Assembly (NCBI GenBank): GCA_017469355.1
Contig: JAFUGM010000048.1
Coordinates: forward strand, 1 to 54,335
Length of the DNA stretch: 54,335 nt
Direction: 5' to 3'
From: Solobacterium sp.
GTDB lineage: Bacteria; Bacillota_I; Bacilli_A; Erysipelotrichales; Erysipelotrichaceae
In this document: in pieces, positions 19,225 to 24,018 of the stretch
How the letters are laid out: each line of letters opens with the position of its first letter
How positions within the stretch are numbered: the first letter of the stretch is position 1
The notes under the pieces: model-generated
Told to the model about the DNA's origin: nothing
Seen by the model: the letters and a program-made list of their open reading frames with translations, nothing else
Databases searched by the model: none
Program-made: the position numbers and the translations under genes

Positions 19225-19647
19225 TCAGGCGCCCTGTTTCTGTGCATCCAGATAATACTGCAATATGCGCACTGCCGCCATACGATCGATGACTTTCTTC
19301 CGCTTCTTCCGCGAGACATCTGCCTCGATCAGAATCGCTTCCGAATCCTTCGTCGTATTTCTTTCATCCTGAAGAACCACCTTCACACCAGACTCTTCTT
19401 CCAGAACCTGACCGAACTCTTCACATAACTGTGCCCGTTCTCCCCGATCACCGTTTTCCAATAACGGCCATCCAAGAACAATCAGTTCCGCATGTTCACG
19501 TTCGATCAGCTCAAGCAGAAGATCCATACAGCGGTTATAGTCATTCGGCTTGAAACGGATCGTCGTCAAAGGACTGGCGATCACGCCGGTGTCACTTCGG
19601 GAAACTCCGCAGGTCACACTGCCGAGATCAAGCCCCAGAATGATCAT
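19225..19647 (-). CDS. ruvX: YqgF/RuvX-type RNase H-fold nuclease
   Basis: 140 aa. The first Asp-containing strand [12 protein letters not shown] and the later [18 protein letters not shown] match YqgF, a putative Holliday-junction resolvase implicated in 16S rRNA 5' processing. It overlaps the ireB end by 4 bp. Confidence 0.93.
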
Positions 19648-19913
19648 TCGCCGTCGTTTTCTTCCAGATAAAAGCGAACAAGTTCCTCAATGATTTCATG
19701 GCGTTCTACCGACTGAATGATGGATCGCGCATTCTTATGTGAGGAAATGTAAGCCGGATCATTGGAAATGAGATATCCGGCCATCTGATTAATGGCATTA
19801 TATCCCCGTTCCTGAAGTGCATCCTGTACCAGCATCAGCACCTGCCGTATATTCTCACGGCGAATCTGATTGGCGTCAAAACTGACAGTCGGTGAAATAT
19901 CAACATTATTCAT
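19644..19913 (-). CDS. ireB: IreB-family regulatory phosphoprotein (DUF965)
   Basis: 89 aa. IreB in Enterococcus is a substrate of the PASTA kinase IreK and tunes cephalosporin resistance. The family core is clear ([32 protein letters not shown]), and the N-terminal Thr (SPTVSF) may be the phosphorylation site. GGAGGT precedes the ATG. In most Firmicutes it directly follows alaS; here a glycosyltransferase lies between. Confidence 0.93.
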
Positions 19914-20004
19914 GGGACACCTCCGATCTCTATGGCATTATTCTAACAAAATCTCAGACGGTTTTACTGCATTTTCCACGCACTTTCAGCACAATTTCAC
20001 AATC

Positions 20005-21025
20005 TTAAGAATGCGTTCGATTATTCCATAACAGAAACAAGCGATAACTCCAATGGGCTATAGCTCTGCTCCAGGTACCACGAAAGTGGCATAGCATAAT
20101 CCCATAGCGAAGGATTAGCGGCCATCCCGCAGCTCCAGTCAATGGGATATGTGTGGAAACAAATTGGTGAATCTCTTTTATCGCATCAGCGACACCTTCA
20201 TCATTTCGATCCTTGCAGAAGTTAAGGTTAATCCAAAAATGCTGTGCCGCATAAGCCACACATTTTAACAGCGCCTGTTCCAGCCGGGAATCTTCGTAAT
20301 ACTCCACTTTTTCCATCAGCGATTGATAACGGCGAACATGGGCATTCCAGTAGTCGATCAATACCTGTGCGTGTGCACTGTGAGAAATACTTGTATCAGA
20401 TTGGCTGTAATGATAAAACGACAGATCCATTCCGGTAACTTTCTCCGCATTGAGAAACAGACGATATACGGTAGAGATATCTTCAAACCGTTCACCAACC
20501 GGAAACCGAACTCCTTCAAAACACGAGGAGCGCCAGAGTTTATTCCATAACACATTGGAAAATCTGGTCTCACATAACAGGTGCAGCGCCTTATTGGCAT
20601 CGACGGTATGGGCATAGGAGTTTATTTCCTTACGGTATGAAGGATATTCTTCCCAATGCCCGCATTCAATAATGTCCCCCCCCCGACTTCACTGCGCACA
20701 GTATCATGGATTCATACATTTCCGGTGCCATCCAGTCATCACTGTCCGCAAATCCGATATAGTCCGCATGGTTGGAAATCGAAAACTCAATGCCCGCATT
20801 GCGTGCAGCAGAGACGCCGCCATTTGCCTGGTGAATGACATGAATCCGTTCATGGGTCCTCCCATAGTCATCCGCAATGTATCCCGATTGATCTGTTGAC
20901 CCATCATCCACAACAACAATATGAAGGTTCCTCCATGTCTGATTCAAAAGACTGTCGAGACAGCACGGTAATGTATTCTCAGAATTATATACTGGCACAA
21001 TCACAGTGATCATAGGTTCATACAT
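20005..21025 (-). pseudogene. family 2 glycosyltransferase, frameshifted at a nine-G tract (phase-variable candidate)
   Basis: Two frames together encode one GT2. The first (ATG about 21025 to a TGA at 20666) has the GT-A start ITVIVPVYNSENTL, VVVDDGSTDQS, NGGVSAARNAG and FADSDDWMAPEMY. It reads into nine G and stops six nt later. The second frame runs from the same tract to 20005 (for example NVLWNKLWRSSCFEGVRFPV, then ERFEDISTVYRLF). Removing one G joins them into 340 codons including stop (1021 nt minus one), so this is a single one-base shift. It could be an OFF phase variant, a mutation or an assembly error. It would transfer sugar to a surface glycan. No Shine-Dalgarno is clear; starts at 21046, 21025 and 21013 are possible. 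Confidence 0.85.
20676..20684 (-). repeat. homopolymer of nine G (minus strand) in the glycosyltransferase
   Basis: C9 on the plus strand. The tract lies within Ser-Gly-Gly codons (TCG GGG GGG GG), at the exact point where the reading frame breaks. Such runs slip during replication and switch genes on and off in many host-associated bacteria. Confidence 0.9.
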
Positions 21026-21099
21026 GCAGGGTTCGGTACGGTTCATAACCACAAGTGTAGGTAAACCATGGATGGTATAAATCACTGTTATGCACAAAT

Positions 21100-21127
21100 A
21101 ACACAAAGGACCGGAAGCTCCGGTCCT
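21100..21127 (-). terminator. terminator of alaS
   Basis: Minus-strand AGGACCGGA / TCCGGTCCT perfect 9-bp stem with a 3-nt loop, followed by TTGTGTTA, an imperfect T-run. It separates alaS from the glycosyltransferase. Confidence 0.75.
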
Positions 21128-21139
21128 GATCCAATCGAA

Positions 21140-23779
21140 TTATTCTGAGATGCGCTTTCTTACTTCCGCAATGGCCTGATCCAGTGCAGAGACATCCTTT
21201 CCGCCAGCCTGAGCCATATCGGGACGTCCGCCGCCGTTTCCGCCGGTCAACTGTGCAGCTGCCTTTACCAGGTCACCTGCCTTAAGTCCTTTTTCAATCG
21301 CGGCCTTGGATGCGGCACATACAAACGTTACCTTTCCGTCGTTGACATTTGACACAAAGACAAGTCCGTCTGTGAGCTTATTGCGAAGCTGTTCCGCATA
21401 TGCCTTCATTCCACCCGGTTCCATGCCATTCTGGGTTACAAAGAGTACGGAGAGACCATTGATCTGTTCTGCATTCTCCAGCTGGCTGTTTGCGCTCTGC
21501 GCAAGGGCCTGCTGCTTAGTCTTTTCTACTTCCCGACGCAGCGAAGCGTTTTCTTCCTGCAGTGCCTGAATCCGCTCCTTAAGCCCCTGATAGTTCTTCA
21601 TCTTGAACAGCGATGCGGTTTCATTAAGGTATTCCTGTTCACTGCGGAAGCTGTTATAGGCGTCCATCTTAGTAATGCTGGTAATACGGCGTACACCAGA
21701 TCCGATGGATTCTTCACTGATAATCTTGAATACACCAAGGTTTCCTGTATTGGCAACGTGGGTACCGCCACAGAACTCCTTTGAGAAATCCCCCATGGTT
21801 ACTACCCGAACCTGATCGCCATACTTTTCATCAAACAACGCAATGGCACCAGTCTGTTTCGCCTCGTCAATCGACATGACTTCCGTCACAACATCGACAT
21901 CCGCCTGAATCATTTCATTGACCCGACGCTCGATTTCCTTCAGCTGCTCATCGCTGACCTTTTCATAGTGACTGAAGTCAAAGCGGCCATATTCAGGGCA
22001 GTTATAGGAGCCAGCCTGTGCGACATGTGTTCCAAGAACACTGCGGAGTGCACTCTGCAGCATATGCAGGGAACTGTGGTTGGCACGGGTGCGCTGACGG
22101 CGTTCAAAGTCATAAGCACCTTCTGCGACATCCCCAAGGCGAATGACGCCTTCCTTCACTTCCACATGATGAAGGGGCTGCTGGTGAGGTGCCTTCTTCA
22201 CATCTGTCACATTGGCACGGAAGTGTTCCCCTGTAAGAATTCCGGTATCGGCACACTGACCACCGCTTTCCGCATAGAAACAGGTGGAACTGAGAATCAC
22301 ATCGCCACTGTCAGTAATCTCATCAACCTTAACCCCATCCTTGAAAAGACCAATCACTGTTCCAGTAGAAGTGGTATCAGTATAACCAGTAAATTCAGAA
22401 GGCTCTTCAAAGTCCATGAGATCCGCGGACTGTCCATGCATGGACTGCTCCGCACCACGAGCTTCCTTGGCACGCTTTACCTGCACTGCCATTTCTCTGT
22501 CAAAGCCTTCCATATCCACCTGATATCCGGCATCTTCCGCAATCTCGGTAGTCAGCTCTTTCGGGAATCCATAGGTATCATAGAGACGGAATACCACTTC
22601 TCCAGGCAGCACTTTTTCTTCCTTATGTGCTTCTAACTGTGCATTTAACAGTGACTCCCCGTTTGCCAGGGTCCGATGGAAGCTTTCTTCTTCCTGTTTG
22701 ACCAGTTTTGCGACAAGTTCTTTCTTTTCCTGCAGGTACGGATAATAGTCAATCATATTGTCGGCAACTACCGGTACTAATCGATGCATGAAGGAGCCTT
22801 CAATGCCAAGTTTGATTCCATAACGAACGGCACGGCGCAGAACTCGGCGCAATACATAGCCACGTCCTTCATTGGAGAACATCGCACCATCGGCGATCGC
22901 AAAGGTAACCGTACGAATGTGGTCCGCGATAACACGATAAGCCATCTTATACTCAGGCTCATCATAGGAATGTTTCGCAAAGCCTTCCGCCGCCTTGATA
23001 ATCGGAAGGAAGAGATCGGTATCGAAGTTGGTTTCCCCTTCCTGAATCAATGCGACAAGACGTTCAAGACCCATGCCGGTATCGATATTCTTATGTGGCA
23101 GTTCCTTATATTCGGAACGCGGTACTTCTCCTGGCCGACAGTCGAACTGCGAGAAGACGATATTCCATACTTCGATATAGCGGTCATTTTCGATATCTTC
23201 GAAGAACAGTTTCTCTCCTAATCCCTGCGGGTCAAAGGCAGGCCCACGGTCATAGTAGAGTTCGGTATCCGGTCCGCCCGGACCACGTCCGATTTCCCAG
23301 AAGTTATCTTCGGTCTTGCGGATATGCGAAGGAATCATTCCTACCTTTACCCAGAGATCATAGGCTTCCTGATCATCCGGATACACCGTGACATACATCC
23401 TCTCCTTCTCAAAGCCGACCCATTCCGGGCTGGTCAGGAATTCCCATGCCCAGGGAATCGCTTCCTGCTTGAAGTAATCGCCAATTGAGAAGTTTCCCAG
23501 CATCTCAAAGAAGGTATGATGACGTGCTGTCTTACCTACATTTTCAATATCGTTGGTACGAATACTCTTCTGTGCGTTGCAGATACGATTGGACTTCGGT
23601 TTCTCGGTTCCGTCAAAATACTTCTTCAACGCGGATACTCCCGCATTGATCCATAACAGTGTTGGATCATTGTGGGGAATCAGACTTGCACCGGGTTCAA
23701 TCATTGATCCCTTTGACGCAAAGAAGTCCAGAAACATCTGGCGAACCTGATTTCCGCTTAACTGCCTGTTTGTGCTCAT
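21140..23779 (-). CDS. alaS: alanyl-tRNA synthetase
   Basis: 879 aa, full length. Charges tRNA-Ala. Order: class II catalytic core (LFFEDIEND, ARHHTFFEMLGNFS, GMGLERL), tRNA-binding region, editing domain with zinc ligands NHSSLH and CGGTH, then a coiled C-terminal domain ending in a Gly-rich segment (GGNGGGRPDMAQAGG). The ATG at 23779 is preceded by GGAGGAGAG; a start six codons upstream would overlap this site. Expression is set by a T-box. Confidence 0.97.
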   Translation of the reverse strand: MSTNRQLSGNQVRQMFLDFFASKGSMIEPGASLIPHNDPTLLWINAGVSALKKYFDGTEKPKSNRICNAQKSIRTNDIENVGKTARHHTFFEMLGNFSIGDYFKQEAIPWAWEFLTSPEWVGFEKERMYVTVYPDDQEAYDLWVKVGMIPSHIRKTEDNFWEIGRGPGGPDTELYYDRGPAFDPQGLGEKLFFEDIENDRYIEVWNIVFSQFDCRPGEVPRSEYKELPHKNIDTGMGLERLVALIQEGETNFDTDLFLPIIKAAEGFAKHSYDEPEYKMAYRVIADHIRTVTFAIADGAMFSNEGRGYVLRRVLRRAVRYGIKLGIEGSFMHRLVPVVADNMIDYYPYLQEKKELVAKLVKQEEESFHRTLANGESLLNAQLEAHKEEKVLPGEVVFRLYDTYGFPKELTTEIAEDAGYQVDMEGFDREMAVQVKRAKEARGAEQSMHGQSADLMDFEEPSEFTGYTDTTSTGTVIGLFKDGVKVDEITDSGDVILSSTCFYAESGGQCADTGILTGEHFRANVTDVKKAPHQQPLHHVEVKEGVIRLGDVAEGAYDFERRQRTRANHSSLHMLQSALRSVLGTHVAQAGSYNCPEYGRFDFSHYEKVSDEQLKEIERRVNEMIQADVDVVTEVMSIDEAKQTGAIALFDEKYGDQVRVVTMGDFSKEFCGGTHVANTGNLGVFKIISEESIGSGVRRITSITKMDAYNSFRSEQEYLNETASLFKMKNYQGLKERIQALQEENASLRREVEKTKQQALAQSANSQLENAEQINGLSVLFVTQNGMEPGGMKAYAEQLRNKLTDGLVFVSNVNDGKVTFVCAASKAAIEKGLKAGDLVKAAAQLTGGNGGGRPDMAQAGGKDVSALDQAIAEVRKRISE

Positions 23780-23796
23780 AGTGTTCTCTCCTCCCA

Positions 23797-24018
23797 TAAA
23801 AAAACCTGCAGATTCTGCAGGAACGTTTCTAACGCGGTACCATCCTGGTTCGTATTCATTTTAATAAAGGAATACGCTCTTAATTCACCGGTAACGACGG
23901 CTACGGCACGGATTAGGTGCTCTCCGAAGCAGCTTCATATAAGTTCCCGTTCAGGCTTTCACCAGCCGCCTGTTCTCTATACCGTTTCCTTATATTACTC
24001 GTCTTCTTCTGCGATTTC
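23797..24018 (-). promoter_or_regulatory. T-box leader of alaS
   Basis: The T-box core GGATGGTACCGCG lies at 23833-23845 (minus strand). The terminator is the palindrome CCTGCAG-AAT-CTGCAGG (23805-23821) followed by seven T. Upstream, GCTGGTGAAAGCC fits the Stem I distal loop, and two tandem GCT triplets at 23928-23933 sit about where the specifier is expected, fitting alanine. Uncharged tRNA-Ala should stabilise the antiterminator and permit alaS transcription. Confidence 0.9.

Follow-up and report, generated by a model that had tools for sequence, protein, structure and literature searches.

A putative phase-variable GT2 glycosyltransferase gene broken at a G9 tract in Solobacterium, and long G tracts across the Erysipelotrichales

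Introduction

Gram-negative pathogens provide the best-known examples of phase variation through G tracts, and the underlying mechanism, poly-G slippage, has long been known. Campylobacter and Neisseria possess phase-variable glycosyltransferases (GTs) of surface glycans that carry poly-G/C in their coding sequences (see also PMC9187656). The GT2 gene described here resembles these in having a homopolymeric G tract within a GT gene, where the reading frame would set an ON or OFF state. The Gram-negative genes, however, belong to LOS or glycoprotein glycosylation clusters, whereas ours is an orphan gene between housekeeping genes.

According to its citation in PMC9187656, gsmA of Mycoplasma agalactiae governs phase-variable secretion of a beta-1,6-glucan through a G tract, as was demonstrated experimentally. 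As far as that citation goes, the likeness is that a G tract within coding sequence toggles production of a polysaccharide of the cell surface, in a bacterium related to the Firmicutes; the gene and the host are different, and gsmA was established by experiment, whereas our GT2 gene is known from sequence alone. In Bifidobacterium breve UCC2003, deep sequencing revealed several lengths per population for the G tracts of the sortase-pilus genes bbr_0113 and bbr_1889 (PMC9187656). There, too, a G tract divides an ORF in two in a Gram-positive gut commensal, but B. breve belongs to the Actinobacteria, the genes concerned encode pilins, and switching was demonstrated, including enrichment in mice (PMC9187656).

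In the accessible part of the open-access literature, we found no reports of such tracts with phase variation in Erysipelotrichaceae or Erysipelothrix, and the spread of G-tract switching through the Erysipelotrichales appears to be undescribed there. It is this order-wide spread that deserves attention, the mechanism proposed for the GT2 gene being itself known.

Results

The GT2 gene is divided at its G9 tract

The gene occupies positions 20005-21025 on the minus strand of the window, by which we mean the whole stretch of DNA analyzed (54,335 nucleotides; contig 58 of the source genome), and it spans 1,021 bp, or 3 × 340 + 1. As assembled, it consists of the following parts:

20676-20684, minus strand: G9 tract (C9 on the plus strand), the proposed slippage site, C-preceded in the context TC-G9-AC
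20666-21025, minus strand: first reading frame as assembled, 119 aa, with the nucleotide-sugar part and DSDD; matches PF00535 (E 1e-30)
20005-20687, minus strand: second frame, from the tract interior to the natural stop, with NKL and the ED motif and no further stops

From the ATG at 21025, the frame runs for 119 codons and ends in ...CAVKSGGGHY*, with the stop directly past the tract. The second frame, DIIECGHWEEYPSYRKEI..., comprises 227 open codons and stops at 20005. Both halves are coding-like as well as open, and in a mechanical ORF list they also appear as the shorter ORFs 20005-20553 and 20666-21106.

Homology spans the whole length of the gene, and homologues keep a single frame across the break site (DTGADIVECG in genome G055). 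The PF00535 match in the first half scores above the gathering threshold and covers positions 1-100 of the 168 in the profile. The read-through protein matches the glycosyltransferase GalT1 (PDB 5HEA), its best solved homologue by sequence and a protein in which a slippage tract is not known, over residues 5-216 and thus across the break (E 3e-40). Together, these matches indicate that the GT2 family assignment is right and that the tract cuts the domain in two. In the read-through protein, the DxD motif (DSDD) lies at residues 94-97, before the break, and the ED motif, which aligns with the ED of GalT1, lies at residues 181-182, after it. With DSDD and ED on opposite sides of the tract, the G9 product would be made without ED. 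What is known of GT2 enzymology is the basis for expecting inactivity in such a case, and the G9-length product, with neither ED nor the acceptor-binding half, should be inactive.

The original prediction had placed the frame break exactly at C9/G9 and held that one G fewer would restore a single 340-codon frame, with the GT2 motifs in order and both halves otherwise undamaged. Our analysis confirmed the coordinates and both frames, the length of the gene agrees with the 340-codon frame, the motifs follow in the order described, and no second lesion was found in either half.

The gene is inserted between alaS and ireB

The neighborhood of the gene comprises the following features:

21140-23797, minus strand: alaS, the upstream neighbor of the insertion
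21107-21127, minus strand: terminator-like hairpin after alaS and upstream of the GT2 gene, 9 pairs, a weak call (one found, 1.3 expected by chance)
19644-19913, minus strand: ireB (IreB, PF06135), the downstream neighbor of the insertion

In 26 of the 29 other genus loci fetched via ireB, alaS lies 68-253 bp upstream of ireB with no GT between them, and in the remaining three the gap holds different cargo; at our locus it measures 1,227 bp (19914-21139). What occupies this slot between alaS and ireB differs from species to species. Judged from the sequences, G018 carries a GH3-like gene there and G085 an ABC transporter pair; G059 carries other genes. By comparison of gene order, the GT2 gene has been inserted as an orphan between alaS and ireB, a place at which the other genus members checked have no GT. 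The original prediction had considered a Firmicute example beside alaS notable; its poly-G part is supported, but the adjacency to alaS proved incidental, as the cargo of the slot varies by species.

The closest GTs in 70 genus genomes reached 35-40% identity, which makes the gene look acquired. In 85,000 genomes, a single-protein scan returned no close relative, and an alignment scan gave only GTs of 31-42% identity. The terminator-like hairpin after alaS suggests that the GT2 gene probably needs its own promoter; no convincing one was found in front of the gene.

The frame break falls on the sole long G/C run in the window

A G9 run is expected 0.26 times in the shuffled 54-kb window and occurred at least once in 21 of 100 dinucleotide shuffles, so the run alone is not significant. 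The tract is, however, the only G/C run of at least 7 in the window, and the GT2 gene is the only broken gene seen there. The real signal is this coincidence of the sole frame break seen with the sole G/C run of at least 7 in 54 kb.

Long G tracts in the source genome lie at frame breaks and in promoter-like spacers

Pattern searches of the source genome, a 2.69-Mb draft that is 98% complete, yielded 15 tracts of at least seven G, nine of at least eight, and five of at least nine. Five of 15 tracts at this length exceed a geometric decay (p about 0.001). Three of the five lie exactly at single frame breaks and two in possible -35/-10 promoter spacers, assigned by eye. Besides the tract of the GT2 gene, they are the following:

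G9, contig C73 at 30565 (L148:4402-5563): splits a PF01555 DNA methylase among prophage-like genes
G10, contig C33 at 47056 (L147:3761-5252): splits an SLFN_AlbA_2 (Schlafen/AlbA_2) regulator with a winged-helix end, the profile being cut at position 70
G10, contig C26 at 2857: between TTGCCT and TAGAAT, roughly 50 bp upstream of the gene of a 915-aa secreted, probably wall-anchored protein
G9, contig C45 at 10444: between TTCAAA and TATAAT, before the gene of a small DNA-binding-like protein (small regulator)

All five thus fall in contingency-type genes or promoter-like spacers. The methylase, broken exactly at its G9, is a candidate phase-variable orphan methylase in its own right; no relative of it, with this or another tract length, was found in viral contigs or in the genus. 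A gene of G009 that resembles the one on C45 by eye likewise has a G10 upstream.

Long, C-preceded G tracts recur in the genus and the order

The 70 genus genomes contain 283 tracts of at least seven G, 82 of at least eight, and 34 of at least nine. A C precedes 27 of the 34 longest tracts versus 20 of the 48 G8 tracts (Fisher p 7e-4). Tracts of at least nine G occur in 80 of 196 genomes of the order, representing 41 of 71 genera, and among the tracts listed in an unselected set outside the genus, 85 of 127 are C-preceded. Whether a long G tract is coding or lies in a promoter, the base before it is C far more often than expected, and the base after it is mostly T.

An automatic classifier of coding frames was too strict, leaving most tracts as "intergenic/unclear," and contexts were therefore judged by eye from ORFs and Pfam matches. 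Genus tracts include in-frame and out-of-frame cases. In G049, a GT2 gene and an acyltransferase gene of one glycan cluster both carry a long G tract, and both are in frame. Long tracts also occur at genes of choline-binding and Ig-like surface proteins, and in G040 a sugar transferase gene lies downstream of one. DNA methylases in G015 and a hexapeptide acetyltransferase in G041 are further cases, although both genomes are large bins with some contamination (10 and 7%, respectively) and provide weaker evidence.

Near-identical copies differ in tract length. Two promoter regions of G003, with flanks 97-98% identical, have G9 (L041) and G10 (L054), and two species of another genus, G096 and G183, have G9 and G10, respectively, with downstream flanks 97% identical.

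The order-wide set for the reading of contexts consisted of genomes with several C-preceded tracts; its 48 of 48 preceding C residues reflect this selection and were not used. In this chosen subset, TTGAC occurs within 22 bp upstream of the tract in 14 of 48 cases versus a background of 1.8%, several of the promoters being near-copies within one genome, which inflates the significance of this enrichment. A promoter layout TTGACx-(1 to 10 bp ending in C)-Gn-TA recurs (L246-L250, L240-L245, L260, L264, L265, L275, L276, and L111) ahead of diverse genes in several of the order's genera.

In prophage tail-fibre-like genes of the order (L034, L140, L252, L253, L255, L257, and L258), C-Gn tracts sit at the 5' end of the gene or separate tandem copies; four G9 tracts, spaced at about 470-500 bp, are present in L253. 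Matches to PHROGs back the tail-fibre call for L034, L140, L252, and a neighboring gene in L253.

Discussion

We consider it probable, on the evidence of the sequence comparisons, that the GT2 gene encodes a phase-variable orphan enzyme that is switched by slipped-strand mispairing at its G tract and was recorded in the OFF state. Replication slippage within the tract would add or remove one G. If the tract had an in-frame length, either one G shorter than in the assembly or some other that keeps this frame, the complete enzyme of 339 aa would be made; at the G9 length, the product would end at 119 residues and the gene would be OFF. The enzyme, to judge from GalT1 as its nearest solved relative, probably transfers a sugar onto a glycan or glycoprotein of the cell surface. 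With such a role, switching would make a clone a mixture of cells with and without that sugar. We infer slippage at this locus from the anatomy of the gene together with the tract pattern of the lineage; its reversibility, the activity of the enzyme, and the surface target are likewise predictions.

Poly-G slippage, as already proposed in the original prediction, emerged as the best supported reading, given the five tracts of the genome itself, the tracts of relatives at glycan, methylase, surface, and phage genes, and the copies that differ in length. Against a switch, a single assembled length is known for this gene, the nearest genus GTs being 35-40% identical, and nine residues is a modest length for a hypermutable tract.

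A consensus or assembly error, in which the true tract is in frame and the enzyme is constitutively intact with no switching, is in our judgment unlikely. G tracts are hard to call, the source genome is a draft of 92 contigs, and PMC9187656 warns that annotated G-tract lengths may depart from the true distribution. Yet A or T runs of 6-7 nucleotides within other genes of the window leave their ORFs open, with no further broken gene seen there, which argues against an assembly that is generally poor at homopolymers. Genus tracts are found both in and out of frame, and an error would leave the placement of tracts in glycan, methylase, and tail-fibre genes and in promoters unexplained. We regard it as very unlikely that the gene is a plain pseudogene, that is, a dispensable, recently acquired gene that suffered a single frameshift at a mutation-prone site and has no maintained switch, even though it is an orphan insertion without close orthologues and indels do arise at long mononucleotide runs. 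Its 340 codons contain no second lesion; all three coding tracts of at least nine G in this genome break otherwise intact genes, and a relative has in-frame versions with the same architecture. Moreover, GGG is a minority glycine codon (16%), and codon use makes a TCG-GGG-GGG run improbable (p about 0.003).

Polymerases tend to slip on long G tracts, and ribosomal frameshifting or RNA-polymerase slippage might yield some full-length enzyme from the G9 gene; some leak of this kind is plausible even with switching at the DNA level. As an explanation of the locus, however, recoding strikes us as highly improbable. Programmed ribosomal frameshifting is recognized by a conserved slippery site and a stimulating RNA structure, whereas at this tract a stable RNA structure was not found (z 0.64) and GT homologues do not conserve the Gly-Gly run encoded by the tract. 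Furthermore, the promoter-spacer tracts of the same kind cannot work through recoding.

Slippage in the DNA could act at both kinds of site: coding tracts would be turned ON or OFF by frame, and in promoter tracts slippage would alter the -35/-10 spacing. We tentatively propose, and place just short of probable, that C-preceded G tracts serve the Erysipelotrichales as a general switching system through slippage. It would act on glycans and proteins of the surface, on DNA methylases, and, through tracts lying between the -35 and -10 boxes, on many promoters, and prophages of the same hosts would use such tracts in tail-fibre genes. If it were true, a receptor and its receptor-binding protein would switch by one mechanism. 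With G-tract switching across an order of gut Bacillota, surfaces would probably vary within one clone, and single assembled genomes would misreport gene content, making intact genes look broken.

Long tracts are present, too, in two loci that were included solely as GT relatives: a G12 in a hexapeptide acetyltransferase gene of a Peptococcaceae bin (L160:2413) and a G10 in a GT2 gene of a Bacilli bin (L161:68).
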